Assembly: GCF_001624695.1 (NCBI RefSeq)
Contig: NZ_JSEP01000008.1
Coordinates: forward strand, 1-64,000
From: Labrenzia sp. OB1
Lineage (GTDB): Bacteria > Pseudomonadota > Alphaproteobacteria > Rhizobiales > Stappiaceae
Direction: 5' to 3'
DNA: 64,000 nt
Below, in pieces: positions 3,277-25,697 of this stretch. The translations under genes and the position numbers were made by a program. The first letter of the stretch is position 1. The number at the start of each line of letters is the position of its first letter. The notes beneath the pieces were generated by a model, which had not been told where the DNA came from, did no database searches, and saw nothing but the letters and a program-made list of their open reading frames with translations.

Positions 3277-3786
3277 ATGAGCGATATTGAGCAGATCCCG
3301 GTCACGATGACCGTCAACGGCAAGAAGGTGCAGCGTTTCGTGGAACCGCGCACGCTTCTTATCCATTTTCTCAGGGAAGACCTGAACCTGACCGGTCCGC
3401 ATATCGGTTGCGAAACGTCTCATTGCGGTGCCTGCACCGTCGAGATGAACGGCATGTCGGTGAAGAGCTGCACTTTGTTCGCAGTTCAGGCGAATGATGC
3501 CGAGCTGACCACCATCGAAGGCATGGCCAATGCGGACGGCACACTGTCGGCGCTTCAGGAAGGGTTCCGCCAGATGCACGGGTTGCAATGCGGCTTCTGC
3601 ACACCGGGCATGATCACGCGCGCCCACACGCTTTTGCAGGAAAACCCGAACCCGACGGAAGACGAAATCCGTATGGGGATTTCGGGAAACCTGTGCCGCT
3701 GCACCGGCTACCAGAACATCGTCAAGGCCATCCAGTATGCCGCGGCCAAGCTCAACGGCACTGATTTTCAGGAGGCTGCAGAATGA
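3277..3786 (+). CDS. coxS: Aerobic CO dehydrogenase, small (2Fe-2S) subunit
   Basis: This 169-residue subunit carries the two [2Fe-2S] clusters that relay electrons from the Mo-Cu site in CoxL to FAD in CoxM. The plant-ferredoxin-like N-terminal domain has Cys45, Cys50, Cys53 and Cys65; the helical C-terminal domain has Cys105, Cys108, Cys140 and Cys142 in QCGFCTPGM and LCRCTGYQN. All eight ligands are present. The start has AGGGAGAG upstream. It lies 24 bp after coxM, and its stop overlaps the coxL start by 4 bp, as expected for co-translated subunits. Confidence 0.96.
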
Positions 3787-6203
3787 ACGACATGACCCCG
3801 ACACGGGAACAGCGCGAGGCCGCCCTTGAAGGCATGGGCTGCAAGCGCAAGCGCGTTGAAGACATCCGGTTCACCCAGGGCAAGGGCAACTATGTCGATG
3901 ACCTGAAACTTCCGGGCATGCTCTTCGGAGATTTCGTTCGCTCCCCCTATGCCCACGCCAAGGTCACCAGGATCGACGCGAGCGAAGCCCTGAAGCTGCC
4001 GGGTGTTATCGCGGTGCTCACTGCCGAGGACCTCAAGGGCGTCAACCTGGCCTGGATGCCGACGCTGGCCGGTGATGTGCAGATGGTTCTGGCTGACGGC
4101 AAGGTGCTCTACCAGAACCAGGAAGTGGCGTTTGTCGTCGCTGAGAACCGCTATATCGCCGACGACGCCATCCAGCTTGTCGAAGTCGAATACGAAGAGC
4201 TTCCCGTTCTGGTCGATCCCTTCAAGTCCATGGATGCCGATGCGCCGGTCCTTCGTCCCGATCTCGACGGCAAGACCGAGGGCGCGCACGGTCCGCGCAA
4301 GCACCACAATCACATCTTTACCTGGGAAGTCGGAGACAAGGACGAGACGTCCAGGGCTTTCGCCGAGGCGGATGTCACCATCAAGGAGATGATTTCCTAC
4401 CACCGTACGCATCCCTCCCCTCTGGAGACCTGCCAATGCGTTGCCTCCATGGACAAGGTCAATGGTGAGCTGACGGTCTGGGGAACTTTTCAGGCGCCGC
4501 ATGTGATCCGCACGGTGGCTTCCCTCCTGTCGACCATTCCGGAGCACAAGATCCACGTGATTGCGCCGGATATCGGCGGAGGGTTCGGCAACAAGGTGGG
4601 CGCCTATCCGGGCTATATCTGTTCCATCGTTGCCTCGATCGTCACCGGTGTGCCGATCAAATGGGTTGAGGACAGGATGGAGAACCTCTCCACCACCTCG
4701 TTCGCCCGCGATTATCACATGACTGCGCAAATTGCGGCGAAGAACGACGGTACGGTCACCGGTCTGAAGGTTCATGTTCTTGCCGATCATGGCGGATTCG
4801 ACGCCTGTGCCGATCCCTCCAAATGGCCGGCCGGGTTCTTCAACATCGTCACGGGGTCCTATGACTTTCCGGCGGCGCATCTGGAAGTCGACGGCGTCTA
4901 TACCAACAAGGCGCCCGGAGGCGTCGCCTACCGGTGTTCTTTCCGTGTGACGGAAGCTGCCTATTGCATCGAGCGGGCGATGGATATTCTGGCGCAGAAA
5001 TTGAGCATGGATCCGGCGGACCTGCGCATCAAGAATTTCGTCAAGCCGGAACAGTTTCCCTATCAGTCGGCGCTCGGCTGGGAATATGACAGCGGCGACT
5101 ACCACACCGCCATGCACAAGGCGATGGACACGATCGGCTACCGCGAACTGCGGGCCGAGCAAAAGGCCAAACAGGAAGCCTTCAGGCGTGGGGAAACCCG
5201 CGAAATCATGGGAATCGGAGTTTCCTTCTTCACCGAGATCGTCGGTGCCGGGCCTTCGAAGAACTGCGATATCCTTGGAGTGGCCATGTTCGACAGCGCG
5301 GAAATCCGCGTGCATCCGACCGGTTCTGTGATTTCGCGTATGGGCACCAAGTCCCAGGGCCAGGGGCACGAGACCACCTGGGCGCAGATCATTGCAACGG
5401 AGATCGGCATTCCGGCCGCGGACATCATGGTCGAGGAAGGCAATACGGACACGGCTCCTTACGGACTGGGTACCTACGGATCCCGTTCGACGCCTGTTGC
5501 CGGCGCCGCCATCGCCCTCGCCGCGCGCAAGATCCGGAACAAGGCGCAGATGATTGCCGCGCATATGCTGGAAGTGTCCGAATACGACCTGGATTGGGAC
5601 ATTGACGGTTTCCAGGTGAAGGGCAATCCGCAAGCGCGCAAATCCATGAAGGAGATTGCCTGGGCGGCCTATCACGCCCCGCCTCCCGGTATGGAACCGG
5701 GTCTGGAAGCGGTGAGTTACTACGATCCGCCAAACATGACCTATCCCTTCGGCGCCTACTTCTGCGTCATGGATATCGATGTCGATACCGGTGTCGCCAA
5801 AACCCGGCGTTTCTACGCGCTGGACGATTGCGGCACACGGATCAACCCGATGATCATCGAGGGACAGGTTCATGGCGGCCTGACCGAGGCATTCGCCATC
5901 GCGATGGGACAGGAAATCCGCTACGACGAGATCGGTAACGTGATGGGCGCGTCCTTCATGGATTTCTTTATCCCGACAGCGGTGGAAACACCGCATTGGG
6001 AAACCGATCACACCGTCACGCCAAGTCCGCATCATCCGATTGGGGCCAAGGGTGTGGGCGAAAGCCCGAATGTCGGCGGCGTTCCGGCCTTTTCCAACGC
6101 CGTGAACGATGCGTTCCAGTTCCTGGGCAGCACACATATCCAGATGCCGCATGACGCCTGGCGGATCTGGCAGGCTGCCAAGGATCTTGGTGCGCACGGC
6201 TGA
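3783..6203 (+). CDS. coxL: Aerobic CO dehydrogenase, large (Mo-Cu catalytic) subunit, form I
   Basis: CoxL (806 residues) holds the molybdopterin cytosine dinucleotide cofactor and the Mo-S-Cu centre that oxidises CO. The form I signature AYRCSFR is present, with the copper-ligand cysteine at residue 385, matching Cys388 of O. carboxidovorans with a three-residue shift. The catalytic glutamate in [13 protein letters not shown] is residue 760, matching Glu763 with the same shift. These residues separate true CO dehydrogenase from form II and from xanthine dehydrogenase relatives. The ATG overlaps the coxS stop (ATGA). I see no frameshift or internal stop, so the gene appears functional. Confidence 0.97.
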
Positions 6204-6251
6204 ATGAGGAGTGGCGGTCCACACCACACCACGCCACACCAAACTTACTTT

Positions 6252-6282
6252 CAGGAGAGGTTTCGTATCAGGACCTCTCCTG
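6252..6282 (+). other. Intercistronic stem-loop between coxL and coxD
   Basis: CAGGAGAGGT pairs with ACCTCTCCTG around a 12-base loop, giving a perfect 10-bp stem inside the 222-bp gap between coxL and coxD. No T-tract follows, so it looks less like a terminator than an RNA processing or stability element that would uncouple structural-subunit expression from the maturation genes. A stretch of CCACACC-type short repeats lies just upstream (about 6218-6240). Confidence 0.45.
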
Positions 6283-6425
6283 CCCCGTCCTCCCCTGGAT
6301 CCAGCATATCGGGGTGCCACCGCTCCGGAATGAAGGCAAACGGGTCAGATCCGGCGGAAACACTGCATGGATTGCCGGTTCAAGTCCGGGGATGATGAAG
6401 CGGGAGGTTGAAGAGAACGGGCCTT

Positions 6426-7307
6426 ATGACGAAGACCAGGGAACAATTGGCAAACGCTTTGGCGCAAACGGGTTATGTCGCCGATGAGGGACTGGCGACG
6501 ACCCTTCTTCTGAGCGAAATGCTGGATCGTCCGCTCTTGCTGGAAGGCGAGGCTGGCGTCGGCAAGACCGAGGTTGCCAAGGCACTGGCCAAGCTTGAAA
6601 ACACGGCACTTATCAGGCTTCAGTGCTACGAAGGGCTCGATCGCTCCGATGCCATCTATGAATGGAACTATCAGCGCCAGATTCTCGCAATCAAGGCGCG
6701 GGAAGGTTCCGGCGAGGATGCCGAAACCGTGGAAGAAGCGGTCTTTTCCGAAAAATATCTTCTCGAGCGCCCGCTGTTGGCCGCCATCCGGCAAGATCGG
6801 GCTCCAGTTCTTCTGATTGACGAGATCGACCGGGCGGATGAAGAGTTCGAAGCTTTTCTGCTGGAGATCCTGTCGGACTATCAGGTGTCGATACCGGAAC
6901 TCGGCACGGTTCCTGCGATCTCAATTCCACGCGTTGTGCTGACCTCCAACGGGACGCGTGAGCTGTCGGACGCTCTGCGCCGGCGCTGCCTTTATCATTA
7001 TGTCGACTATCCGACACCGGACCGGGAGGCACGGATCCTGTTGTCACGGGTCGACGGGCTTGACGCAGCGCTTGCCCTGCAGATTGCTGAACTCATGGGA
7101 AAGCTGCGCAAGGAGGATCTGGCGAAGGTGCCAGGTGTTGCCGAGACCATCGACTGGGCGGCCGCTCTTTTGGGGCTCGGCGCGAAAAACCTGCAGGACA
7201 GCCGCGAACTTGTCTTCGATGCGCTTGCCTGTGTCCTGAAGACCCGCGAAGACCGCGCCCGCGTTTCTCCCGAAGTTACAGACCGGCTTTTGGGAAAGGT
7301 GGCGTGA
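6426..7307 (+). CDS. coxD: CoxD, MoxR-type AAA+ ATPase for Mo-Cu cofactor assembly
   Basis: CoxD is an AAA+ ATPase needed to sulfurate and insert copper at the CO dehydrogenase active site in O. carboxidovorans. The 293-residue protein has Walker A GEAGVGKTE (about 42-50), Walker B LLIDEIDRADE, and the sensor/arginine region LTSNGTRELSDALRRRC. I chose the ATG at 6426 (MTKTREQLANAL) rather than a TTG 18 bases upstream because it matches the usual family N terminus. It is followed 4 bp later by coxE, a von Willebrand protein; MoxR/VWA pairs work together in metal insertion. Confidence 0.92.
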   Translation: MTKTREQLANALAQTGYVADEGLATTLLLSEMLDRPLLLEGEAGVGKTEVAKALAKLENTALIRLQCYEGLDRSDAIYEWNYQRQILAIKAREGSGEDAETVEEAVFSEKYLLERPLLAAIRQDRAPVLLIDEIDRADEEFEAFLLEILSDYQVSIPELGTVPAISIPRVVLTSNGTRELSDALRRRCLYHYVDYPTPDREARILLSRVDGLDAALALQIAELMGKLRKEDLAKVPGVAETIDWAAALLGLGAKNLQDSRELVFDALACVLKTREDRARVSPEVTDRLLGKVA

Positions 7308-7311
7308 CGCG

Positions 7312-8511
7312 ATGACCGCCCTGACCCTGGACACTGCCGAGGATATCGGTGCCGTACTGCGGTATCGGCTGGCCGGGTTTGTCCGTTCTCTGCGCGACAG
7401 CGGCTTCAAGGTGGGGCTGGCAGAGACGAATGATGCGCTTCGATTGCTCAATACACCGGTCATGAACCGTTCGGGCAGCTTGAAGGCTGCCTATCGCTCG
7501 TTGTTTTGCGGACGCCTGTCGGACTGGCAGCGTTTCGACGAGATTTTCGATGCCTACTGGACAGGGCGCGGTGTGAAGTCGGGGGTCAAGGTGACCGGGT
7601 CAAATACGCGCAAGGGCACAAAGACAATTCGCGAACTGGTTGATGCCCAGGGCAACCGTCAGGAGACGATTGCCGGGGATGTCGAGCGCCAGCCCGGTGA
7701 GGAGGATGAAGACACCGGCGAAACGCCGTCCGGCCGACGGGAAGGCGCGAGCATCGCCGAGAACCTGGGTCAGGTCGACATCCGCAACATTCACGATCCC
7801 GAGGCTCTGGAAAAAGCCCATGACCTTGCGGAAAAACTGGCCCGCGCGATGCGTGTTCGGCTGACCCGAAGGGACCGACAGAAACGAAAGGGACCCCGGC
7901 TCGATCTCCGCCGGACGATCCGTCATTCCATCGCCCATGGCGGCACGCCGATCGAGCTGATCCACAAGGGTCCGCGGTCCCGGCAGCTCAGGCTGGTTAT
8001 CCTGCTCGATGCCTCCGGATCCATGAACAACTACACCGGGGTCTTCACGCGCTTCGTGCACGGCATTCTGGACAATTTCCGTGAGGCGGAAGCTTTTCTG
8101 TTCCACACGCGTCTGGTGCATGTATCCTCCGCCCTGTCAGAGCGGGACGCGGCTCGGGCGCTCGACCGTATGGGGCTGATGGCTCAAGGCGTCGGAGGCG
8201 GAACGAAAATCGGCGAAGCCCTCGCGGATTTCAATCGCTTTCACGCGGCCCGGGTCATTCACTCACGAACCTGCGTAATGATCCTGTCCGACGGCTACGA
8301 CACGGGGGCGCCGGAAATCCTGGGGGAGGAAATGGCCCGGCTGAGACGCCGCTGCCGCCGGATTGCCTGGCTCAACCCGTTGATCGGCTGGGAAGGTTAC
8401 ACGCCGGCAACGGGCGGCATGCAGGCAGCGCTGCCGCATGTCGATCTCTTCGCCCCGGCACATAATCTCGACAGTCTCGCAGCTCTTGAACCTTATCTGG
8501 CGAAGCTTTGA
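7312..8511 (+). CDS. coxE: CoxE, VWA-domain partner of CoxD
   Basis: This 399-residue protein has a C-terminal von Willebrand A domain with a complete MIDAS metal site: DASGSMN (about 230-236), the Thr in GGGTKIGEA, and the Asp in LSDGYDTG. The N-terminal half is charged, with an acidic insert around 125-145. CoxE proteins pair with MoxR ATPase CoxD and are required for a functional copper-molybdenum site (family knowledge). It starts 4 bp after coxD and ends 3 bp before coxF, consistent with one transcript. Confidence 0.92.
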   Translation: MTALTLDTAEDIGAVLRYRLAGFVRSLRDSGFKVGLAETNDALRLLNTPVMNRSGSLKAAYRSLFCGRLSDWQRFDEIFDAYWTGRGVKSGVKVTGSNTRKGTKTIRELVDAQGNRQETIAGDVERQPGEEDEDTGETPSGRREGASIAENLGQVDIRNIHDPEALEKAHDLAEKLARAMRVRLTRRDRQKRKGPRLDLRRTIRHSIAHGGTPIELIHKGPRSRQLRLVILLDASGSMNNYTGVFTRFVHGILDNFREAEAFLFHTRLVHVSSALSERDAARALDRMGLMAQGVGGGTKIGEALADFNRFHAARVIHSRTCVMILSDGYDTGAPEILGEEMARLRRRCRRIAWLNPLIGWEGYTPATGGMQAALPHVDLFAPAHNLDSLAALEPYLAKL

Positions 8512-8514
8512 CCC

Positions 8515-9423
8515 ATGGGAGATGCTGAAATGAAACATGCCGCGCCCGTGACACCGTCCAGATCCGAACCTGTGTCCGGCGTCGATCTGTCGGAACTGAT
8601 GAGCCGTCTGCAATATGACAATGAACCCTTTGTGCTGGCCACGGTGGTGCGCACCATATCGGTCACCGCGGCGAAGGCAGGCGCGAAAGCCGTCATAAAC
8701 CGGGACGGCGCCATCGTCGCAGGCTGGATCGGCGGCGGATGCGCCAGGGGCGCTGTCCTGCGGGCCGCCAAGGCAGCCTTTGACGACAGGGAAACCAGAT
8801 TGATTTCCATCCAGCCGGGAGATCTGCTCGCCGAGCTCGGTGTCGAACCGGGCGATGAGCGTGAAGGTGTGCAGTTCGCCAGAAACATGTGTCCAAGTCA
8901 GGGGACCATGGACATCTTCATTGAACCCGTTCTGCCCCGCCCGGTTCTTGTTGTTTACGGGGCGAGTCCGGTCGCCGTCGCATTGGCGCAACAGGCGCGA
9001 ACCATAGGGTTCGACATTGCGGTTTGTGCTCTTCCGGAAGATCTCGATGCCTTTCCCGCCGGTATCGACAAGACCGGTGGCTTCGACAGCTTTAAGCCGG
9101 GCAATGCGGAGACATATGTCGTCGTTTCAACGCAGGGGCGCGGCGATCTGGCGGCGCTTGAAGAAACCTTCAAGTTGCCCGCGCGCCATATCGGCTTTGT
9201 GGGCAGCCGGCGGAAGCTGGAAACGCTCAAGGAAAAACTGAAGGACAAGGGGATAGCGCCCGAGGACCTTGATCGCGTCAAGGGACCAGCCGGTCTCGAT
9301 CTAGGGGCGATTACACCGGAAGAGATCGCTCTTTCAATTCTGGCCGAACTTCTGATGCTGCGAAGGAAAGACCAGCGCCTACACGATCTGGACAGTGAAG
9401 ATGCGCAGGTTGTTGAAACCTGA
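8515..9423 (+). CDS. coxF: CoxF, XdhC/CoxI-family maturation protein
   Basis: The 302-residue product has the XdhC/CoxI N-terminal module (LATVVRTISVTAAKAGAKAV, then GWIGGGCARGAVL) and a C-terminal Rossmann-type XdhC domain (GFVGSRRKLETLKEKL). Family members bind molybdenum cofactor and protect or sulfurate it before delivery to xanthine-dehydrogenase-type enzymes. Position directly after coxE identifies it as CoxF. The ATG at 8515 is used here; a second ATG at 8530 is possible. A separate xdhC paralogue for xanthine dehydrogenase lies at 25698-26708. Confidence 0.9.
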   Translation: MGDAEMKHAAPVTPSRSEPVSGVDLSELMSRLQYDNEPFVLATVVRTISVTAAKAGAKAVINRDGAIVAGWIGGGCARGAVLRAAKAAFDDRETRLISIQPGDLLAELGVEPGDEREGVQFARNMCPSQGTMDIFIEPVLPRPVLVVYGASPVAVALAQQARTIGFDIAVCALPEDLDAFPAGIDKTGGFDSFKPGNAETYVVVSTQGRGDLAALEETFKLPARHIGFVGSRRKLETLKEKLKDKGIAPEDLDRVKGPAGLDLGAITPEEIALSILAELLMLRRKDQRLHDLDSEDAQVVET

Positions 9424-9684: not shown

Positions 9685-9715
9685 CTGTTTTCAAGACCAC
9701 AAATGATTACCAGTG

Positions 9716-9738
9716 CCGACATGCCTCTGGGATGTCGG
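9716..9738 (+). terminator. Stem-loop after the cox cluster
   Basis: CCGACAT pairs with ATGTCGG across a 9-base loop, 32 bp after the last cox-side reading frame and well before the next promoter. There is no strong T-tract, so termination is uncertain. Confidence 0.35.
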
Positions 9739-9768
9739 ACGTCTGAGCCGGAACCGGTCGCGGAATAG

Positions 9769-9806
9769 GCATGACTGATCCTTGAACATATAGGGTCAGA
9801 ACATGC
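9769..9806. promoter_or_regulatory. Dyad about 125-165 bp upstream of the sigma-54 start, possible enhancer site
   Basis: GCATGACTGATCC and GGGTCAGAACATGC form a gapped inverted repeat around an AT-rich spacer. Sigma-54 promoters need an upstream activator site at about this distance. The sequence does not match the NtrC consensus closely, so the activator is unknown. Confidence 0.35.
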
Positions 9807-9904
9807 TGTTTTTTTAACCACGGCACTTACGGCTTCGCTAAAGTGACATTTCCTGACAGATCCATCTTATTGATCTAATTGCCGAAAATACTTCCCTCTA
9901 CGAA

Positions 9905-9921
9905 CTGGCATCGCACTTGCT
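9905..9921 (+). promoter_or_regulatory. Sigma-54 (RpoN) -24/-12 promoter of the guanidine operon
   Basis: CTGGCATCGCACTTGCT matches the -24/-12 consensus: GG at 9907-9908 and GC at 9919-9920 are separated by exactly 10 bases, with TTGC as the -12 element. The predicted start, about 12 bases after GC, is near 9932, where the riboswitch P1 stem begins. The independent agreement of promoter and RNA boundaries makes this convincing. Sigma-54 use points to nitrogen control. Confidence 0.75.
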
Positions 9922-9931
9922 TGATGACTCA

Positions 9932-10055
9932 CGTGCAGCGCGCCTAGGGATCCGGTCGGAAACGACGCAGGACCGAGAGGTGCAAGCCGGACGAGGGTGT
10001 AAGCCAACATAGTCCGGTAACACGGCGGGATAAAAACCCGGGAGACAACTGCACG
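9932..10055 (+). ncRNA. Guanidine-I riboswitch (ykkC class)
   Basis: The leader carries the guanidine-I conserved blocks in order: CTAGGGATCCGG (9944-9955), GGACCGAGAG (9970-9979), then ACACGGCGGGATAAAAACCC and GGGAGA (10020-10045). The ends CGTGCAG (9932-9938) and CTGCACG (10049-10055) pair as the closing P1 stem. This RNA class binds free guanidinium and usually turns expression on. It lies in the 5' leader of a seven-gene operon containing an ABC importer and a guanidine-hydrolase-type enzyme, which fits the ligand. Confidence 0.93.
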
Positions 10056-10155
10056 AGGTTTCGCGCGCGCGAACCTGCTCCCGGCCGTGCGCAAGAACCT
10101 GATGACGCAAGCCAGGCCGTTCCATGGCCGGGCTCATAACAGGAGTTGCGCCTAG
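10056..10155 (+). other. Riboswitch expression platform / leader to first gene
   Basis: After P1 there is a GC-rich hairpin (AGGTT...AACCT, 10056-10076), then CCCGGCC (10080-10086), which can pair with GGCCGGG (10126-10132). The AGGAG ribosome site is at 10141-10145. No T-tract follows, so control may act on translation or through Rho rather than by intrinsic termination. The alternative pairing with P1 was not modelled. Confidence 0.4.
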
Positions 10156-11226
10156 ATGCTGAAATCGATTGCCAAAGCTTCCCTCCTCGCCGCTGCGCTT
10201 TTGTCGCCGCTGTCATTGTCCGCAAGTCAGGCGGAAGAAAAGAAAGACTTCAAGGTCTGCTGGACGATCTATGCCGGCTGGATGCCCTGGGGATACATCT
10301 CCGAATCCGGAATCATGAAGAAATGGGCCGATAAATACGACATCACCGTCGAGATCACCCAGTTCAACGACTACATTGAATCCATAAATCAGTACACGGC
10401 TGGCGAATTCGACGCTTGCGCGATGACCAACATGGATGCCCTGTCAATTCCTTCCGGTGGCGGTGTCGATACGACCGTTTTGATCGCAGGCGATTATTCC
10501 AACGGCAATGACGGCCTGATCCTGAAGGATGGCGGCGACCTCGCATCCATCAAGGGACAGAACGTCAATCTCGTCGAACTGTCCGTCTCTCACTATTTTC
10601 TCGCCCGCGCGCTGGAAAGCGTCGGTTTGAGCGAGAAGGACATAACCGTGGTCAATACATCCGATGCGGACATGGTCGCGGTCTACGACACTGCGGACAT
10701 CACGGCGGTTGCGACCTGGAACCCGATGCTGTCGGAAATTCTCGCAACGAAAAAAGGCGAAATGGTCTATGACAGCTCGAAAATTCCGGGCGAAATCATC
10801 GACGCGATGATGGTCAACACGGAAACGCTGGCGGACAATCCTGCGCTCGGCAAGGCGCTTGCCGGTGCCTGGTTCGAGGGTCTCGCCCTGATGGCGTCGG
10901 ATACGCCGGAAGGCACTGCGGCGCTTGAGTCCATGGCAGCTGCCTCGGGTACCGACCTTGAAGGCTACAAGGCGCAGCTCGCGGCGACCGCTCTTTTCTA
11001 CCAGCCGGAGGATCTGCTTGCCTTCACCAGCGATGACAAGCTGAAGGAGACGATGAAGTTCGTCGCCACCTTCCTCTTCGATCACGGCATCCTGGGCGAA
11101 GGCGCTCAATCCGCGGAGTTCGTCGGCATCGAATTCGCCGACGGTTCGGTGTTCGGCGACAGCAGCAACGTGAAACTGCGTTTCAACAATTCCTTTGTCG
11201 AGATGGCAGCCAAGGGCGCGCTCTGA
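10156..11226 (+). CDS. ABC transporter substrate-binding protein (TauA/SsuA-like), guanidine operon
   Basis: A 356-residue periplasmic binding protein with a signal peptide (about 1-26, ending SASQA) and an NMT1/TauA-type fold: VCWTIYAGWMPWGYI near the N terminus and EFDACAMTNMDAL in the ligand cleft region. Sulfonate/nitrate-type importers of this family recur under ykkC control, and the Synechocystis guanidine hydrolase operon has similar ABC genes. The ligand is therefore probably guanidine or a substituted guanidine (inference). The ATG has AGGAG 10 bases upstream. The permease and ATPase come later in the operon, separated by two enzyme-like genes. Confidence 0.85.
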   Translation: MLKSIAKASLLAAALLSPLSLSASQAEEKKDFKVCWTIYAGWMPWGYISESGIMKKWADKYDITVEITQFNDYIESINQYTAGEFDACAMTNMDALSIPSGGGVDTTVLIAGDYSNGNDGLILKDGGDLASIKGQNVNLVELSVSHYFLARALESVGLSEKDITVVNTSDADMVAVYDTADITAVATWNPMLSEILATKKGEMVYDSSKIPGEIIDAMMVNTETLADNPALGKALAGAWFEGLALMASDTPEGTAALESMAAASGTDLEGYKAQLAATALFYQPEDLLAFTSDDKLKETMKFVATFLFDHGILGEGAQSAEFVGIEFADGSVFGDSSNVKLRFNNSFVEMAAKGAL

Positions 11227-11311
11227 TCGTGACAGTTGGGCGGCGCGGCTGGAATGGCCGCCGTGCCGCCGCTTCTTGTACTTCCTGAACCACAATCATA
11301 CGGGGTTCCTC

Positions 11312-12367
11312 ATGGCTTCCAGATCGCCTCTGGCCTTCACCGAACTTCCAGTCGTGGATGTTTCCGGACTTTATTCTTCAAACAGGCAGGACCGTCTTGC
11401 GGCCGCCATGGAACTCGGCAAGGCCGCGCAGGAGGTCGGGTTTCTCTATGTGACCGGGCACAGGGTTTCGCGGGATGTGCGCAGCGGTCTCATCGACCAG
11501 ACAAAAGAGTTCTTCGCGCTCTCTGAACAGGAGAAGATGGAGATCTACATCGGAAAGTCGGCGAACCATCGCGGTTATGTCCCCCCTGGCGAAGAAGTCA
11601 TGGCGGACGGCAAGGGCGACACGAAGGAGGCTCTCGACCTGGGACCGGAAATCCCGTCGGACCACGCGCTGGTGAAATCCGGCACTCCGTTCCTGGGGCC
11701 CAATCAGTGGCCGGCGCTTGACGGCTTCCAGTCCTCGGTCAGCACCTACTATGAAGCCGTTTTCGACCTTGGCCGCCATTTGTTGCATGGCTTCGCTCTG
11801 GCGCTTGGAGAAGAAGAGGACTTCTTCGACAAATACGTCACCTGCCCGCCGAGCCAGCTCCGGCTTCTCCATTATCCATACAATTCTCAAGCGAGCGACA
11901 GTCCTGGCATCGGGGCGCACACCGATTACGAGTGCTTCACGCTTCTTTTGCCGACCGCCCCCGGTCTGGAGGTCATGAACGGCGCGGGGGACTGGATCGA
12001 CGTTCCTCTCCTGCCCGACGCCTATGTCGTCAATATCGGCGACATGATGGAGGTCTGGACCAACGGTCGTTTCGTCGCCACGTCCCACCGGGTCCGCAAG
12101 GTCAAGGAAGAGCGCTATTCCTTCCCGCTGTTCTTCGCCTGCGACTACGACACCGTGGTGGAGCCCCTGCCCGCGTTCGTAGCGGAGAATGAAAAGCCCA
12201 ACTTCGGGCCGATCAAGGCGGGGGACCATCTTCTGGCGCAGACCATGCAGAGCTTTACCTATCTCATTGAAAAGCAGAAGCGCGGCGAAATCGGTTTGCC
12301 CGAAGGAGCGAAGGAATTGTCCTCGTTCGGACAGGAAGCCCGGCAGAAGGCCGATGCGGATGCTTGA
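11312..12367 (+). CDS. 2-oxoglutarate/Fe(II)-dependent oxygenase (isopenicillin-N-synthase-like)
   Basis: The 351-residue protein has the DIOX_N segment (about 10-110) and a double-stranded beta-helix core with the iron triad His203, Asp205 and His259 (GAHTDYE; ATSHRVR), plus the co-substrate-binding RYS at 268-270. This family includes ethylene-forming enzyme, which releases guanidine from arginine, and plant homoarginine hydroxylases that also yield guanidine. In an operon under a guanidine riboswitch with a guanidine hydrolase, it may hydroxylate a substituted guanidine beside the guanidino nitrogen so that free guanidine is released (inference). The start at 11312 follows an 85-bp gap and gives the expected N terminus. 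Confidence 0.85.
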   Translation: MASRSPLAFTELPVVDVSGLYSSNRQDRLAAAMELGKAAQEVGFLYVTGHRVSRDVRSGLIDQTKEFFALSEQEKMEIYIGKSANHRGYVPPGEEVMADGKGDTKEALDLGPEIPSDHALVKSGTPFLGPNQWPALDGFQSSVSTYYEAVFDLGRHLLHGFALALGEEEDFFDKYVTCPPSQLRLLHYPYNSQASDSPGIGAHTDYECFTLLLPTAPGLEVMNGAGDWIDVPLLPDAYVVNIGDMMEVWTNGRFVATSHRVRKVKEERYSFPLFFACDYDTVVEPLPAFVAENEKPNFGPIKAGDHLLAQTMQSFTYLIEKQKRGEIGLPEGAKELSSFGQEARQKADADA

Positions 12368-13061
12368 GCGCATGATGGAGTTGCCGCAGCACTGGCAGGG
12401 ATTGTGGCATCGCACCCTGTTGGAGCGGCGCGGAGCCGGCAGCCTGACGAACGACCGGCCGGCCGAGGTCTATTGGCTCCAGACGCCACTTTGGCATGCG
12501 GACCTGCGCATTCCCGACGACCGGCCGGATTTCTCCGGCGTGACTTCGCTCGACGGATGCAACGACGACCAGTTGGCCTTTATCGCCGGGCAGGAAGGCT
12601 TCTGCGGCGTTACCCGTGTGGAAGGCTCGATCTGTACGTGGTCCCGTCTGTTCGATCTCAATCCCGGAACCGCGCTCGATGTCGCCCGGATGCGTTTCGA
12701 GCACGAGGATTTCATTATCGAAACCGGCATTGTGGAAGATTACACAGAACACTGGAAACGGGTGCCCGGGTCCGAGCCGGCACCAGGCCTTCCGCCGGCG
12801 GATTGTGCCCTCATTGACGGCATCTTCCTGCAATCCGGCGATTGGGGTGTCCAGGTGAACCCCCGCGAAGGCGCACCGGACGGGATCGATCTTTATTGCG
12901 AAACGGCGGCCCGCGGCCGCGAACATCTCCTGTGGCAGGCCAGTCTGGCGATTTCACTTTGCGAGCGTACGCCAGCTGGCTGGATCACAAGGCTCTCAAC
13001 CCATCCATGGCGGGAAGGCCAGGCGCTCACTGTTGCAGAAAGCGAGACGACATGCGTCTGA
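12360..13061 (+). CDS. Uncharacterised protein of the guanidine operon (HRI1/lipocalin-like?)
   Basis: About 233 residues, start uncertain among ATGs at 12354, 12360, 12372 and 12375; all overlap or abut the oxygenase stop. It is Trp-rich, with no signal peptide or membrane segment. GLWHRTLLE, VYWLQTPLWHADLR, GFCGVTRVEGSICTW and IDGIFLQSGDWGVQV suggest an anti-parallel beta-barrel resembling HRI1-type proteins of unknown function, but this is recognition by eye. Its stop overlaps the permease start by 10 bp, tying it to the transporter operon. No catalytic motif is evident; a ligand-binding or accessory role with the oxygenase is possible. Confidence 0.6.
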   Translation: MLERMMELPQHWQGLWHRTLLERRGAGSLTNDRPAEVYWLQTPLWHADLRIPDDRPDFSGVTSLDGCNDDQLAFIAGQEGFCGVTRVEGSICTWSRLFDLNPGTALDVARMRFEHEDFIIETGIVEDYTEHWKRVPGSEPAPGLPPADCALIDGIFLQSGDWGVQVNPREGAPDGIDLYCETAARGREHLLWQASLAISLCERTPAGWITRLSTHPWREGQALTVAESETTCV

Positions 13062-13873
13062 TCAACCGCAAGCCGGGCCGTGCGACGGCATTGATGCTGG
13101 GCCTCCTGCCTTTTCTGGCCCTCATCATCGTCTATACCATCGCCAGTCAGGCCCGGCTCGCCGAGAACCCGTCAGACAGATTGCTGCCGTCGCTTCAGTC
13201 CATGGCCAATGCGATGGAGAAGATGGCGTTCGAGCCGGATCGACGAAATGGCGAGCTTCTGCTGTGGAAGGACACATTTGCCAGTCTGGCAAGGATCGGT
13301 GCAGGGCTGGGTATTTCAACTCTGCTTGCGCTTCTCATCGGCCTTGCCATGGGAACCCTGCCCTACGGCAAGGCGGCGTTGGCTCCCTTCGTCGGCGCGT
13401 TCTCCCTTATCCCTCCCATTACGATCCTGCCGATCCTGTTCATCATTCTCGGTCTCGGAGAAGCCGCCAAGATCGGCTTGATCGTGGTTGGAACCGTAGC
13501 GTGCATGATCCCCTACATCACCCAGGCGGCGTTCGACATACCGCGGGAAATGATCATCAAGGCCGAAACGCTGGGGGCGTCCAGTTGGCAGATCGTGACC
13601 CGGGTCATCGTTCCGGGAGTTCTGCCCACGGTGGTGATGGCCTTGCGGATCGGCCTTATTCCGGCGTGGATCTTCCTTGTTTCCGCCGAGGCCATCGCTT
13701 CGACGGAGGGCTTGGGGTACCGGATTTTCCTGGTCCGGCGTTACATGGCGATGGATATCATCCTGCCGTATGTCGCCTGGATAACGCTGCTTGCGTTCAT
13801 CATGGATTACCTGCTGCGTGTGTTCTCACGTGTCGCCTTCCGGTGGAAGCATCTTGAGGGGGACAGCCTGTGA
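13052..13873 (+). CDS. ABC transporter permease (TauC/SsuC-like), guanidine operon
   Basis: A 273-residue inner-membrane permease with about six hydrophobic spans and the EAA-type coupling loop AETLGASSWQIVTRVIVPG (about 173-191) that contacts the ATPase. It begins inside the end of the preceding gene and overlaps the ATPase gene by 4 bp. A long periplasmic segment after the first span (about 30-75) contains RLLPSLQSMANAM, typical of this permease group. It should form a homodimeric channel with the 10156 binding protein and the next gene's ATPase. Confidence 0.9.
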   Translation: MRLINRKPGRATALMLGLLPFLALIIVYTIASQARLAENPSDRLLPSLQSMANAMEKMAFEPDRRNGELLLWKDTFASLARIGAGLGISTLLALLIGLAMGTLPYGKAALAPFVGAFSLIPPITILPILFIILGLGEAAKIGLIVVGTVACMIPYITQAAFDIPREMIIKAETLGASSWQIVTRVIVPGVLPTVVMALRIGLIPAWIFLVSAEAIASTEGLGYRIFLVRRYMAMDIILPYVAWITLLAFIMDYLLRVFSRVAFRWKHLEGDSL

Positions 13874-14709
13874 GCACGGACGCGATCATCTCGGTAGACA
13901 GCGTGTTCAAGAATTATGGCGATGCCCGCATTCTGGAACGGGTCAATCTCGACGTGGCCCGGGGGACATTCTGCACCATTGTCGGCGCATCAGGCTGCGG
14001 AAAGTCCACCTTCCTGCGAATGCTGTTGTCTCAGGAACACCCGAGCCGGGGTAACATCCTCTTGGAAGGCCGCCCTCTCCCTCCGGAACCTACCCCCGAT
14101 CGTGGCATCGTATTTCAGCGCTATTCGGTTTTTCCGCATCTGACGGTCGCCGAGAACCTTGTGCTGGCTTCGGAATTCGAGGCAGCGCCGTTCACGGGTC
14201 GTTTGTTCGGTTCCCAGAGGAGAGAGGCGCTTGCCGAAACGGAAGCCCTTCTTGACCGGATCGGTTTGTCTCATGCCGCGAACCGGTACGCCGTGCAGCT
14301 TTCCGGCGGCATGCAACAACGTCTCGCCATTGCTCAGGCACTGGTCAAGAAACCCAGCATCCTGCTTCTCGATGAGCCCTTCGGCGCGCTCGATCCCGGT
14401 ATCAAGCTCGATATGCATGAACTTCTGCTCGGGCTCTGGGAAGAATTCGGCATGACGGTTTTCATGGTGACCCACGACATCCATGAAGCCTTCAAGCTGG
14501 GCACCCGCCTGCTCGTCTTCGACAAGGTTCGACACGACCTCCAGGCGCCCGAAGCCTATGGCGCCACTATTACCTACGATTTGCCACTTTCGGAACCGGA
14601 GAAGAGATCTGACCGGTTGCGTGATGAAATCGCGGGAACCATCCACGTCCCGAAGACTGCGCTCTCTTCGGGGTTTCAAACACCAAACCCTCATGAGGAA
14701 CGTTCATGA
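13870..14709 (+). CDS. ABC transporter ATPase (TauB/SsuB-like), guanidine operon
   Basis: A 279-residue nucleotide-binding protein with Walker A GASGCGKST (about 39-47), signature LSGGMQQR, Walker B ILLLDEPFGALD and H-loop MVTHDIHEA, all intact. It starts with GTG overlapping the permease stop and ends in a 4-bp overlap with the ureohydrolase gene. It should energise import for the binding protein at 10156. Confidence 0.92.
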   Translation: MSTDAIISVDSVFKNYGDARILERVNLDVARGTFCTIVGASGCGKSTFLRMLLSQEHPSRGNILLEGRPLPPEPTPDRGIVFQRYSVFPHLTVAENLVLASEFEAAPFTGRLFGSQRREALAETEALLDRIGLSHAANRYAVQLSGGMQQRLAIAQALVKKPSILLLDEPFGALDPGIKLDMHELLLGLWEEFGMTVFMVTHDIHEAFKLGTRLLVFDKVRHDLQAPEAYGATITYDLPLSEPEKRSDRLRDEIAGTIHVPKTALSSGFQTPNPHEERS

Positions 14710-15944
14710 CACTGTTTGATCGCAACGGCCCGATGACATGGCACAAAGCTGCCGGACCTGTTCGGCGTGAGCCGGCGGAACACCGTCATCATCCGGATTT
14801 CGACAAGCTTCAGTTGCGCGGCTGGAAGGCGGCGGAAAAGGAAGGCACCCTGCCCTCCGCAGCCTGGGAAAAGGAGAAGGCCTGGGCGCTGCGTATGGGG
14901 CTGACGGGTTCCGACTGTCTGACGGACAAGTCCATACCGACATTCGCACGTGGCGAGCTCCCCCACTACGCGGGCATCAACACGTTCCTCAAGGCGCCAT
15001 ACATCGAGGACGTCACCCAGGTTGGAGCTTATGATGCTGCTGTCATAGGTGTTCCCTTCGACGGCGGGACGACTTACCGCCCGGGAACGCGTTTCGGACC
15101 GCAGGGGCTCAGGAAGATCTCCGCGCTCTACACGCCCTACAATTACGAAATGGGCGTTGATCTGCGCGAACAGATGACCCTTTGCGATGTCGGCGACATC
15201 TTCACCATTCCCGCCAACATCGAAAAGACCTTCGATCAGATCACCCGCGCGGTTTCGCATGTCGCGTCGTCTGGGGCGCTGCCTATCATGATCGGCGGCG
15301 ATCACTCCATCGGCTTTCCCTGCGTGCGTGGCATCGCGCAATGCACCTCCAAACGTATCGGCATTGTGCATTTCGACAGGCATATCGACATCCAGGAAAA
15401 GGATCTCGACGAACGCATGCACACGACGCCGTGGTTCCATGCGACGGACCTTGTCAATGTCCCGGCGGTGAACCTGGTTCAGATCGGCATTGGCGGCTGG
15501 CAGGTGCCGCGCGAAGGTGTCGAGGTTGCCCGCGAACGCAACACCAATATCTTCACCATGCGCGACGTGGAGGAACTGGGACTTGCGGAAACCGCGGCCC
15601 GGGCGCTGGAACTGGCCTGGAAAGATGCGGATGCGGTCTATATTTCTTTCGATATCGACAGCGTCGATTGCGGGTTCGTTCCGGGAACCGGGTGGCCGGA
15701 ACCGGGTGGGTTCCTGCCACGCGAGGCTCTGGAACTCGTATCCCTGGTCGCCAAGGAAGGTATTTGCGGCCTGGAGGTGGTGGAAGTCTCTCCGCCTTAC
15801 GACTGTTCGGACATTACCGCGCTGCTTGCCACCCGTGTGATTGTGGATGTGCTCGGCACGCTGGTCTCTCACGGCAAGATGGGCGCGCACAAGCATATCA
15901 TCGACAAGCCAGTCTCGATTCCGGCCGGCCCGGAGGTGATGTGA
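14706..15944 (+). CDS. gdmH: Guanidine hydrolase-type ureohydrolase (GdmH-like)
   Basis: A 412-residue member of the arginase/agmatinase superfamily with an N-terminal extension of about 100 residues. All six dinuclear-metal ligands are present: His200 (GGDHS), Asp224/His226/Asp228 (FDRHID) and Asp316/Asp318 (SFDIDSVD). The usual DAH is DRH here, and QEKDLDERMHTTPW follows, features I associate with the cyanobacterial Ni-dependent guanidine hydrolase rather than agmatinase. That enzyme converts guanidine and water to urea and ammonia. The riboswitch, importer and neighbouring His-rich gene all fit. Agmatinase or guanidinobutyrase activity remains a less likely alternative. Start ATG overlaps the ATPase stop. 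Confidence 0.85.
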   Translation: MTLFDRNGPMTWHKAAGPVRREPAEHRHHPDFDKLQLRGWKAAEKEGTLPSAAWEKEKAWALRMGLTGSDCLTDKSIPTFARGELPHYAGINTFLKAPYIEDVTQVGAYDAAVIGVPFDGGTTYRPGTRFGPQGLRKISALYTPYNYEMGVDLREQMTLCDVGDIFTIPANIEKTFDQITRAVSHVASSGALPIMIGGDHSIGFPCVRGIAQCTSKRIGIVHFDRHIDIQEKDLDERMHTTPWFHATDLVNVPAVNLVQIGIGGWQVPREGVEVARERNTNIFTMRDVEELGLAETAARALELAWKDADAVYISFDIDSVDCGFVPGTGWPEPGGFLPREALELVSLVAKEGICGLEVVEVSPPYDCSDITALLATRVIVDVLGTLVSHGKMGAHKHIIDKPVSIPAGPEVM

Positions 15945-15948
15945 GATC

Positions 15949-16413
15949 ATGGGACACGACCATCACGCTCATCATCACCACCCGCATGATCACGCGCATC
16001 CGCACAGTCACAATCATGCCGGATCGGATCATCTGCATTCACATGTCCACGGGACCTCGGATGCGGAGGCGGCGGAAGAAATTCAGGCGCTCGCGGCAAG
16101 CTTTGTCGAAGGCTTCCGCTCGGCTGACGACAAGACAAGCTATTTGCGTCTTGCGGCTATTCCGTTTCACCGGCCTGGTGCGGATGGCCTGACCCAGCAT
16201 CTGGTCGATGCCAGTATCGTCAGCAACTGGCAGGTTGGAACGGCCTCGCCTGCCTTTGCGTCCAGGGAACTGGTCTACATGCCTTATCCTGGCGCCATGG
16301 TTCAGGCGCGCGAAAGCATGACATTTACTTATGTCTCTCTTACAGGGAGGGCGGATGTGGATCTCGTCGATATTCTGACAGAGCGTCTTGCACAGGGCGA
16401 CATTTCACAATGA
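15949..16413 (+). CDS. His-rich protein following guanidine hydrolase, possible nickel chaperone/store
   Basis: A 154-residue protein beginning 5 bp after the hydrolase stop. Residues 1-35 include 17 His in a His/Asp/Ala/Pro tract, of the kind found in HypB, SlyD and UreE-type nickel proteins. The remaining 120 residues form an acidic alpha/beta segment (SFVEGFRSADDKTSYLRL; VSNWQVGTASPAF) that I cannot assign to a family; no GTPase P-loop and no zinc-finger cysteines are present, so it is not HypA or HypB. Last gene of the operon. A metal-delivery or storage role for the Ni-type hydrolase is a reasonable inference, unproven. Confidence 0.75.
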   Translation: MGHDHHAHHHHPHDHAHPHSHNHAGSDHLHSHVHGTSDAEAAEEIQALAASFVEGFRSADDKTSYLRLAAIPFHRPGADGLTQHLVDASIVSNWQVGTASPAFASRELVYMPYPGAMVQARESMTFTYVSLTGRADVDLVDILTERLAQGDISQ

Positions 16414-19149: not shown

Positions 19150-19662
19150 TCAGTCTTTACTTATTCTGTCTTCAAGTCGAAATCGGGAAATACGCGCGAC
19201 CTGCGTCAGCGCGGTCTGCAGTTCATCCTCCGATGAATTCGAGACCCGGTCTTCGAATGCAGCCAGGATCATATGTTTGTTTGCTCCCTTGACCGCGAAT
19301 ATGAAGGGGAACCCGAACCTGGTCTTGTAGCGTGTATTGAGCTGCGTGAAACGCTCGAATTCTTCGCGAGACAGAGTGTTCAATCCCGCTCCCGCCTGCT
19401 CGCGTCTTGAATCTTCGGCAACCTCACCGGCGAGTGCAGCCTTGCCGGCCAGGTCTGGATGCGCGCGCACCAGAGCAATTTTCCGGTCTGCGGGTGCTGC
19501 ATTCATGGCTGTTTCGAACGCGGCTATCACAGCCTCCCGGTCGGCGAACGGCGCCTTTCTGAACGCGTCTTCGGCGACCCATGGAGAATGTTCCGCAACA
19601 TCGCCGAAAGCGGCCACGAAGTCCTTGAGGTCCATGTTGTTTATTCGGTCGATGGCAATCAT
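19150..19662 (-). CDS. uraD: OHCU decarboxylase
   Basis: UraD converts 2-oxo-4-hydroxy-4-carboxy-5-ureidoimidazoline to (S)-allantoin, the last step of urate breakdown. The 170-residue protein shows the family hallmarks HPDLAGKAALAGE (with the catalytic His), the SRREQAGAGL segment and RYKTRFGFPFIFAVKG near the C terminus. It is the last gene of the purine operon, starting 9 bp after puuD. A second ATG at 19635 (MDLKDF) could be the true start. Confidence 0.92.
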   Translation of the reverse strand: MIAIDRINNMDLKDFVAAFGDVAEHSPWVAEDAFRKAPFADREAVIAAFETAMNAAPADRKIALVRAHPDLAGKAALAGEVAEDSRREQAGAGLNTLSREEFERFTQLNTRYKTRFGFPFIFAVKGANKHMILAAFEDRVSNSSEDELQTALTQVARISRFRLEDRISKD

Positions 19663-19671
19663 GGCTGAGCG

Positions 19672-20853
19672 CTATTTCTGTTGACTGATCCAGGCCCCCA
19701 AAGTGGCCCGGTCTTCGGATGTCATTCCGGTTTCATTTCCAAGCGGCATGGCGTCGGACTGCACGGCCTGGGCCATGATGAGATCCGCGTAACGATGCAG
19801 GTTCGCGATCGTATCAAGTTCGATTTCCTTGGGAGCTTCGTCAAAGCCCTCATAGGTCGGATGGGCGGAATGACAGGTTGCGCAATGGGTCCGGGCTATT
19901 TGCAGCGCCGCCGTGTCGCTGACCGTTTGCGATCCGGAAAAGTCGCGCGGTGCTGTCATGACCATGGCGGCAATCGTCGCGACGGCGGCGATCGGAAGCG
20001 ACCACCAGAATTTCCCCAGCTCGTCACCAGCGTCATGCCGGTTGAAGAAATGACGCACCATTCCGCCGATGACGAGAACCAGCGCCACGAGAAGCCACGC
20101 ATGCGGATGTCCCGTCAGCATGGGATAGTGATTGGACACCATCATCAGAAGAACCGGCAGGGTCAGGTAGTTGTTGTGCACGGAACGCTGCTTGCCGATG
20201 GCACCAAGAGCAGGGTCCGGCGCTTCGCCCGCCATCAGACTCGCGGCGATCTTCTTCTGGTTGGGAATGATCACGCCGAAGACATTCACGGCCATGATGG
20301 TGCCGATGAAGGCCCCGATATGGATCAGTGCTCCACGTCCGGAAAAGACGTGGGTGAACATATAGGCGGCCCCGAGGATCAGGACGAAGACGCAAATCGA
20401 CAACAGCGGCGTATTCTTGCCGATGGGAGACTTGCAAAGCTTGTCATAGATGAGCCAGCCGGCGCCCAGAGACGCGATGGAAATTAGGATGGCCTCACTT
20501 GGCATGAGCCTCAAGACGCTCGGGTCGATCAGATAGGCCGTGGCATTGAAGTAATACTGGACGACAAGAAGCGCGAAACCGGTCACCCAGGTCAGATAGG
20601 CTTCCCATTTGTACCAGATCAGGTCATCGGGCAGTTCCTTTGGCGCGGTCATGTATTTCTCGACGTGATAGAAACCGCCGCCGTGGACTTCCCAGGCCGT
20701 GCCCAGGACGCCTTCCTTCATTCCTTCCCTTTTGCGCAGGGAGAGATCGAGTGCGATGAAATAGAAGGACGTGCCTATCCAGCCGATGCCGACAATGAGA
20801 TGAGCCCATCTGAAAAGCAGGTTCAGCCAGTCCATTGCAAAGGCAAGGGTCAT
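19672..20853 (-). CDS. puuD: PuuD-type membrane urate oxidase with cytochrome c domain
   Basis: A 393-residue protein with about eight membrane spans (about residues 5-310) followed by a C-terminal cytochrome c domain with the haem motif CATCH. This is the Agrobacterium PuuD architecture: urate is oxidised to 5-hydroxyisourate and electrons pass to the respiratory chain rather than directly to oxygen. RWAHLIVGIGWIGTSFYFI near the N terminus is characteristic. The start at 20853 is used; an internal ATG at 20835 (MDWLNLLF) matches the usual N terminus and may be real. It lies between the importer genes and uraD. Confidence 0.93.
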   Translation of the reverse strand: MTLAFAMDWLNLLFRWAHLIVGIGWIGTSFYFIALDLSLRKREGMKEGVLGTAWEVHGGGFYHVEKYMTAPKELPDDLIWYKWEAYLTWVTGFALLVVQYYFNATAYLIDPSVLRLMPSEAILISIASLGAGWLIYDKLCKSPIGKNTPLLSICVFVLILGAAYMFTHVFSGRGALIHIGAFIGTIMAVNVFGVIIPNQKKIAASLMAGEAPDPALGAIGKQRSVHNNYLTLPVLLMMVSNHYPMLTGHPHAWLLVALVLVIGGMVRHFFNRHDAGDELGKFWWSLPIAAVATIAAMVMTAPRDFSGSQTVSDTAALQIARTHCATCHSAHPTYEGFDEAPKEIELDTIANLHRYADLIMAQAVQSDAMPLGNETGMTSEDRATLGAWISQQK

Positions 20854-20888
20854 GGGTCGCGCGTCCGTCTTTAATGAGGTTCGGAGGT

Positions 20889-20916
20889 GCCGGTCCGGAA
20901 AAAAAACCGGACCGGC
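20889..20916 (-). other. Stem-loop between the purine importer and puuD
   Basis: GCCGGTCCGG and CCGGACCGGC form a perfect 10-bp stem around an eight-base A loop, 11 bp after the binding-protein stop (minus strand). No T-tract follows on either strand, so it may be an mRNA-stabilising structure that raises expression of the binding protein rather than a terminator. Confidence 0.5.
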
Positions 20917-20926
20917 GTGCTTGAGT

Positions 20927-21991: not shown

Positions 21992-22091
21992 TTGGTTCAT
22001 TCCCCTCTTGTTTGAACTTTCTGTTGCGATCAGGTGATGAGTCCGTTCCCGGATCGCAGCGGGATTTGGACGTGACCGGCTACCGGGAGGT

Positions 22092-25673: not shown

Positions 25674-25697
25674 GCCGTCCCCCGAGCGTCTGCCGCT

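Follow-up and report, generated by a model that had tools for sequence, protein, structure and literature searches.

The window studied here, a stretch of 64,000 nucleotides from Labrenzia sp. OB1, carries an operon of seven genes that we believe, with good confidence, to scavenge nitrogen from methylguanidine and guanidine by way of the guanidine hydrolase GdmH, under an AND gate formed by a sigma-54 promoter and a guanidine-I (Gd-I) riboswitch. In the mechanism that we propose from sequence comparison, an ATP-binding cassette (ABC) importer would bring in methylguanidine and/or guanidine, MgdH and MgdL would convert methylguanidine into guanidine and formaldehyde, as their homologues in Vreelandella boliviensis do, and GdmH would hydrolyse guanidine to urea and ammonia, as two of its relatives do. 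A urease encoded elsewhere in the genome would complete the route from urea, while a histidine-rich (His-rich) protein would supply or store nickel for GdmH. A start from the sigma-54 promoter would require an enhancer-binding activator, for which NtrC, acting when nitrogen is limiting, is the most likely candidate, and the transcript would begin directly with the Gd-I aptamer, so that nitrogen need and guanidine would both be required for expression. A preliminary description of this DNA had already proposed a guanidine operon under sigma-54 and riboswitch control that leads from a substituted guanidine to urea. Our analysis supports this proposal, since a -24/-12 element lies at the same position before the riboswitch in all 33 loci compared within the family of the window.

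The operon and the guanidine hydrolase route

The gene calls confirm the seven tightly packed or overlapping genes of the preliminary description, whose boundaries are correct to within a few bases (Table 1). The genes are co-directed and span 10156-16413; four of the six junctions overlap and the remaining two leave 85 and 4 bases. The family to which the substrate-binding protein (SBP) belongs, TIGR03427, is labelled 'putative urea ABC transporter substrate-binding protein'. Family searches among the seven genes detect neither the guanidine carboxylase (gca) and carboxyguanidine hydrolase genes nor nickel accessory genes of the HypA/HypB type.

Table 1. Features of the operon and its control region (positions in the window)
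Feature	Position	Strand	Basis or remark
Candidate enhancer-binding site TGCTGTTTTTTTAACCA	9804..9820	+	~100 bases ahead of the -24 element; de novo family motif
Sigma-54 -24/-12 promoter, TGGCA-N6-TTGC	9906..9920	+	Pattern match; conserved in 33/33
Predicted transcription start	9932..9933	+	From the -12 position; at the first base of the aptamer outer helix
Guanidine-I riboswitch aptamer	9933..10046	+	RF00442, 68.6 bits, E 4.4e-10
Leader / expression platform	10047..10155	+	CTCCCGG complementary to aptamer CCGGGAG; no U-run terminator
ABC importer SBP, 356 aa	10156..11226	+	TIGR03427, 533.6 bits (cut-off 333.9)
MgdH homologue, putative 2-oxoglutarate (2OG)/Fe(II) methylguanidine hydroxylase, 351 aa	11312..12367	+	DIOX_N, 2OG-FeII_Oxy; identity to V. 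boliviensis
MgdL homologue, putative N-(hydroxymethyl)guanidine lyase	12354..13061 (start 12354 or 12360)	+	Alignment with V. boliviensis MgdL
ABC importer permease, 273 aa	13052..13873	+	PF00528
ABC importer ATPase, 279 aa, GTG start	13870..14709	+	PF00005
GdmH, putative guanidine hydrolase of the ureohydrolase (arginase) family, 412 aa	14706..15944	+	PDB chain matches
His-rich protein, 154 aa, candidate nickel-delivery protein	15949..16413	+	No Pfam or NCBIfam family; position beside gdmH

The hydrolase of the window scores 541 and 527 bits against the PDB chains 7esr/7oi1 and 9fek, which we take to be GdmH of Synechocystis and the Nitrospira enzyme, respectively, and which the PDB table labels 'probable' and 'putative agmatinase 2'; the next ureohydrolase scores 178 bits. 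By these scores, GdmH is a nearer relative of the protein than other ureohydrolases are, and hydrolysis of guanidine to urea and ammonia has been demonstrated for two GdmH relatives. At E <= 1e-100, gdmH is found in 33 of 87 genomes of the family (the window and loci L040-L071), and all 33 loci have the SBP, permease, ATPase and His-rich genes. A urease alpha subunit exceeds its cut-off in every one of these genomes, including that of the window, where it is encoded outside the operon.

The last gene of the operon encodes a protein with an N-terminal histidine tract followed by a conserved domain of about 100 residues, the core of which is predicted confidently in a structure model with a mean predicted local distance difference test (pLDDT) score of 73.9 overall. 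It gives nothing significant, only sub-threshold matches, against Pfam, NCBIfam, PDB sequences and PDB folds. Its gene follows gdmH directly in all 48 alphaproteobacterial loci compared (33 of the family, 10 of the class, 2 named loci and 3 plasmid loci, from Limimaricola, strain SC52 and S. fredii NGR234), and a HupE-like gene comes after it in Chthonobacter, a Mesorhizobium metagenome-assembled genome (MAG) and S. fredii NGR234. The hydrolases of metformin and dimethylguanidine are reported to depend on co-encoded HypA/HypB (PMC11399263). Of the 87 family genomes, 37 encode HypA, and 8 of the 33 that have gdmH lack it; the HypA gene of the window's own genome lies on another contig. The simplest reading is that the His-rich protein is a candidate supplier or store of nickel for GdmH, in place of HypA/HypB, which would offer a candidate answer to where GdmH obtains its nickel when HypA is absent. 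The main competitor, that the protein stores or senses metals in general and is not a nickel chaperone for GdmH, has in our estimation only a little less than an even chance. It agrees with the absence of significant homology or a solved fold, with a sub-threshold similarity of 4 of 16 His-rich members to the zinc-uptake protein ZrgA (which the histidine tract alone might produce), with the HypA that 25 of the 33 gdmH genomes still encode, and with the Rubrobacter gdmH locus, where no His-rich protein was detected. In the portion seen of a study of comammox bacteria, gdmH is likewise reported without nickel chaperones and nickel loading there is called unclear (PMC11410670). Set against these points are the invariable position beside gdmH, the HupE-like genes, the genomes lacking HypA and the dependence of the related hydrolases on HypA/HypB.

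The methylguanidine demethylation module

In V. boliviensis, MgdH hydroxylates methylguanidine and the neighbouring MgdL, modelled as a beta-barrel, cleaves the resulting N-(hydroxymethyl)guanidine, for which D49 and R51 are required (Sinn et al. 2025, PMC12508155). The same work notes that methylguanidine can arise abiotically from creatinine. The oxygenase of the window is 61% identical over residues 9-346 to the MgdH gene of V. boliviensis LC1 (L107, from a GTDB genome scan). The comparison genes were taken from the LC1 contig without an accession match, and residues 49 and 51 of the MgdL there are Asp and Arg as published. The nearest named MgdH relative, at 96% identity, belongs to a locus labelled 'Uncultured Roseibium'. 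Long active-site blocks are invariant in four aligned sequences, as are H203, D205 and H259, presumably the HxD...H iron triad of a 2OG oxygenase. We conclude that the oxygenase is an MgdH homologue and that methylguanidine is most likely its substrate. The preliminary description had the oxygenase free guanidine from an alkyl-guanidine, and this holds as far as a substituted guanidine is concerned; homoarginine as the leading candidate is rejected in favour of methylguanidine because of the 61% identity to MgdH.

The third gene, which has no Pfam or NCBIfam family, had been described as encoding an unknown protein. Its product can nevertheless be named as a probable MgdL homologue: 72 of 214 aligned residues are identical to V. 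boliviensis MgdL, D49 and R51 of the latter fall on D50 and R52, and a structure model (pLDDT 79.2; predicted template modelling score 0.81) is also a beta-barrel. When this model was compared with PDB folds, lipocalin-like and designed barrels came top, none with E <= 0.001. The Asp-x-Arg pair marks the MgdL family rather than its activity, since it is kept in all 20 aligned rows, distant relatives included. No MgdL match was found in viral contigs and plasmids.

Within the family, MgdH occurs in 4 and MgdL in 2 of the 33 gdmH loci; the demethylation module thus lies between the SBP and permease genes, in an operon that most relatives have without these two genes. A wider comparison took in 74 named loci that carry an MgdH relative; of these, 37 have guanidine carboxylase in the fetched stretch, 4 have gdmH and 33 have neither; an MgdL-like gene is present in 54. 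The carboxylase-linked loci include Halomonas/Vreelandella, Mycolicibacterium, Rhodococcus, some Hyphomicrobium and Acinetobacter, while the four linked to gdmH are from the uncultured Roseibium, Roseibium aggregatum, where an MgdL-like gene was not seen, the Mesorhizobium MAG, in which MgdH lies 1.7 kb beyond the operon and no MgdL-like gene was seen either, and Chthonobacter albigriseus. A neighbourhood search for the hydrolase, oxygenase and His-rich genes, as the preliminary description had suggested, finds all of them together in the last of these. An MgdH tree of 66 rows (the window and 65 of the 74 loci, the divergent or split loci L162-L168, L170 and L173 having been removed by hand) requires at least two changes for the gdmH-linked MgdH, with L147 and L154 on long branches. 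The tree thus points to a module that was probably taken up into gdmH operons repeatedly, or else exchanged.

That the oxygenase and the third protein act on another guanidino compound (dimethylguanidine, homoarginine or a larger N-alkylguanidine, for instance) and are no more than members of the MgdH/MgdL superfamilies seems to us unlikely. It is true that, among PDB sequences, the oxygenase is matched best by an enzyme of the ethylene/succinate-forming type, and that V. boliviensis MgdH also accepts N,N-dimethylguanidine; this compound and methylguanidine were the only ones used among those tested (PMC12508155). Yet the identity to MgdH extends over nearly the full length, and 41 of the 74 MgdH relatives lie near gca or gdmH. 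Several observations do weigh against methylguanidine demethylation as we propose it: the identity to MgdL is modest, gca and gdmH are both missing from the vicinity of the MgdH relative in 33 of the 74 loci, 20 of these 74 have no MgdL-like gene, and two genomes of the genus have MgdH in the operon but no adjacent MgdL. The last two, L065 and L066 (genomes G032 and G071), carry an MgdH of 69-70% identity inside the gdmH operon, and Roseibium aggregatum L101 is arranged likewise. In such operons the hemiaminal may decay spontaneously or another lyase may serve.

Some further loci showed related arrangements. Relatives of the window's family (L072-L078) encode distant MgdL-like proteins with Asp-x-Arg and no gdmH in their 11-kb stretches; that of L075 adjoins an MgdH-like oxygenase of 40% identity, and these proteins possibly serve a different demethylation. 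An MgdL-like gene also lies near a Gd-I riboswitch in L094 and L095, with no MgdH or gdmH detected in the fetched stretch. A guanidine-II (Gd-II) riboswitch lies upstream of an MgdL-MgdH pair in L156 (7445-7492, about 1 kb away) and L159 (8277-8324, about 50 bases away), forming a unit separate from the gca operon.

A sigma-54 promoter in front of a guanidine-I riboswitch

The sequence CTGGCATCGCACTTGCT at 9905-9921 is the sole match to YTGGCAYN5TTGCW in the window, where 0.06 would be expected; the 6.0-Mb genome has five matches, compared with one for a reversed control pattern. The element has GG and GC at the fixed spacing that defines membership of the sigma-54 class. With the GC of a sigma-54 site at -13/-12, transcription is predicted to start at 9932, the base just ahead of the aptamer, in line with the earlier view that the predicted +1 coincides with the first base of the riboswitch. 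A consensus scan of 9700-10400 found no sigma-70-like promoter. In the 33 family loci, GG and GC were imposed and only the top-scoring site of each region was kept, with the other letters and the position left free; TGGCA and TTGC are invariant in all of them, and the neighbouring positions are poorly conserved and carry little information. The spacing from TGG to the CTAGGG core of the riboswitch is 38 in 26 loci, 39 in six and 40 in one, and the scores against a 12-position consensus are 12 in two loci, 11 in 13, 10 in 17 and 9 in one.

Outside the family, 13 of 18 alphaproteobacterial Gd-I loci have a -24/-12 site (at least 10/12 with GG and GC), namely 12 of 16 together with one of the pair L094 and L095. 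The 12 sites precede both gdmH and gca operons and include other alphaproteobacterial families, and random 55-mers from the same loci equal their scores at rates of 0.2-0.9%. L185 was counted by its CTAGGGTTCCGG core alone, there being no Rfam match; L184, L187 and L193 were excluded, L187 because it starts at a contig end, and in L184 and L193 no Gd-I was seen, yet each has a 10/12 site upstream of the binding-protein gene. The Hyphomicrobium loci L124, L130 and L135 also carry the site and, as close relatives, were not counted. No site of at least 10/12 was found within 120 bases upstream of the core in any of 14 Halomonas/Vreelandella loci, and the Rubrobacter locus has no -24/-12 site. From these comparisons, the pairing of promoter and riboswitch is conserved in several families of Alphaproteobacteria. 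It is highly improbable that the site is a chance match and that the operon is driven from another promoter under riboswitch control alone: the four further perfect matches in the genome, the 5 of 18 outside loci without a site and the 14 Halomonas/Vreelandella operons lacking it would fit such a view, but the core is invariant at a fixed distance while its flanks have drifted, it precedes the riboswitches of gdmH and gca operons in other families, and no sigma-70-like site was found. The four other genomic matches are at C2:137761, C11:64073, C26:28627 and C36:6355; by eye, a BMP-type binding protein and amino-acid-type ABC permeases come after the matches on C2 and C26, and TGCC-type palindromes lie upstream of those on C26 and C11.

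The riboswitch itself matches the full RF00442 model (positions 1-107) above its gathering score of 63 and is the only above-threshold Rfam match in the window. This answers the covariance-model check that the preliminary description had asked for at 9932-10055. At E <= 5, the region 9880-10170 gives besides it only a 12.9-bit Glutamine-II fragment on the opposite strand, and Rfam gives no Gd-II match in the window. Related ykkC subtypes bind guanosine tetraphosphate (ppGpp) or phosphoribosyl pyrophosphate (PRPP); among the subtypes only Guanidine-I is a credible match at this position, and the gene context is that of guanidine. The riboswitch exceeds the Rfam threshold in 27 of the 33 family loci, and the CTAGGG core is present in all, including the six under the threshold (L048, L057, L058, L063, L069 and L070). 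The complement of the aptamer's CCGGGAG is widely kept across the 33 leaders, and in most of them a GCGCAC adjoining the start codon pairs, by eye, with an upstream GTGCGC, a pairing that is weakened in the window. An intrinsic terminator after the aptamer is rejected, as none of the 33 leaders has a T run of more than four bases after the aptamer and the window has no terminator-like site on the operon strand. The Gd-I riboswitch of V. boliviensis bound guanidine and not methylguanidine (PMC12508155), so methylguanidine would not be a direct inducer here and would induce only after basal conversion by MgdH and MgdL, or along with free guanidine.

An activator site is suggested by a palindromic motif, TGCCTaTTTTTTAgtCA, found de novo in 25 non-redundant upstream regions of the family, 102-144 bases before the -24 element. 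Its log-likelihood is 100.7, compared with 22-29 in five shuffled sets, although the shuffles preserved base content only and were given 15 rather than 40 starts, and a T-rich tract explains part of the gap. The conservation of this palindrome about 100 bases upstream suggests an enhancer site. One protein of the genome exceeds the cut-off of the NtrC model, at 715.7 bits, and NtrC is a likely candidate for the activator of the operon. Upstream of glnK-amtB, a classical NtrC target, TGCCTTAAAAGTGGCCA occurs in the same genome some 100 bases ahead of TGGCACGGTCCTTGAT, which is without the C of TTGC; the palindrome there, at 7/8, is at chance level, such a score being expected in about one-fifth of 110-base stretches, and is not significant alone. 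For Rhizobiales and Rhodobacterales, the 'urea' ABC transporter genes uctABC, together with atzF, have been predicted as NtrC targets (PMC5343134), and these targets possibly include present-day guanidine operons.

Several results count against this scheme of control. The form TGCY-N9-RGCA (at least 7/8), at 40-150 bases upstream, occurs in 11 of 12 outside loci with the promoter, where 2.3 would be expected, but it was chosen post hoc from the same loci. It also occurs in four of four alphaproteobacterial loci without the promoter, making the test outside the family non-discriminating; with three positives among the 14 Halomonas/Vreelandella loci, the total without the promoter comes to 7 of 18. 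The presence of the palindrome in these controls slightly lowers the odds for our reading of the operon as a whole and for the broader reading given below. The enteric NtrC box, with the consensus TGCACCN4TGGTGCA, is rejected: for most of the 33 loci, that of the window included, its best match upstream is no better than in shuffles, and the best single case, L067, is equalled by 10 of 200 shuffles. The five alphaproteobacterial Gd-I loci without the promoter are S. fredii NGR234, strain SC52, Limimaricola, L188 and L095. Folding of 31 leaders (L061 and L071 were dropped) gave alternative pairings with no clear on and off states. The AND gate would follow from a sigma-54 transcript that opens directly with the Gd-I aptamer, and the operon, with its aptamer at +1 in several families, would make a clean test case for such logic. 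A broader reading is that in Alphaproteobacteria a Gd-I aptamer fused to a sigma-54 start of the NtrC type forms an AND gate common to gdmH and gca operons, and that the His-rich tail together with a so far undescribed alpha/beta domain represents a new family of nickel metallochaperones replacing HypA/HypB; this we put forward tentatively, as possible rather than probable.

Surroundings of the operon and comparison with known systems

Upstream of the operon (3783-9423) lie genes for a CoxL-like molybdenum hydroxylase and for AAA, VWA CoxE-like and XdhC/CoxI-like proteins. On the minus strand, 19150-30509 carries genes of purine catabolism, including OHCU decarboxylase, the xanthine dehydrogenase genes XdhA/XdhB/XdhC and a BMP-type ABC transporter, a second nitrogen-salvage block beside the guanidine operon.

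The preliminary description stated that no system with this gene set and dual control was known. This needs revision in one respect, as MgdH and MgdL in a Gd-I operon were published in October 2025; that operon has guanidine carboxylase and no sigma-54 promoter is mentioned for it in the parts consulted, so that the remainder of the statement stands. Titles and abstract openings of the open-licence PMC articles listed in the searches (15 of 110 in one of them; subscription papers, preprints and supplements being outside this scope) describe neither a pairing of sigma-54 with a guanidine riboswitch nor such a gene set, and the word guanidine is absent from the parts consulted of two sigma-54 papers (PMC12316311, PMC12403871). 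We therefore regard the operon as a combination of known enzymes with a control scheme not found described, together with one orphan protein, the His-rich protein. With the demethylation module joined to the hydrolase route, one operon would encode the conversion of methylguanidine to urea.

The V. boliviensis operon (PMC12508155) shares with that of the window the Gd-I riboswitch at the start, the ABC importer and MgdH beside MgdL. It differs in processing guanidine by guanidine carboxylase, carboxyguanidine hydrolase and allophanate hydrolase and in having an internal Gd-II riboswitch, whereas the window has GdmH and the His-rich gene. No sigma-54 site was seen in the 120 bases that precede the Gd-I core of V. 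boliviensis (the best with GG and GC is 9/12 at -86), unlike in the window. The gdmH operon of Synechocystis sp. PCC 6803, so far as the text available describes it (PMC12186494), also unites Gd-I, an ABC importer and GdmH, but it has two nickel-loading accessory proteins where the window has the His-rich protein, and no MgdH or MgdL is described there. Likewise, the account of the predicted NtrC regulon, in the part seen, mentions no riboswitch or link to guanidine (PMC5343134), while the window has both. The arrangement of the window recurs in Chthonobacter albigriseus (L096/L154), where Gd-I (86.6 bits) is followed by the genes for SBP, MgdH, MgdL, permease, ATPase, GdmH and the His-rich protein in the same order. 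Chthonobacter has a -24/-12-like site of 10/12 and an extra HupE-like gene, and relative to the window its MgdL is 31%, its MgdH 60% and its gdmH about 74% identical.

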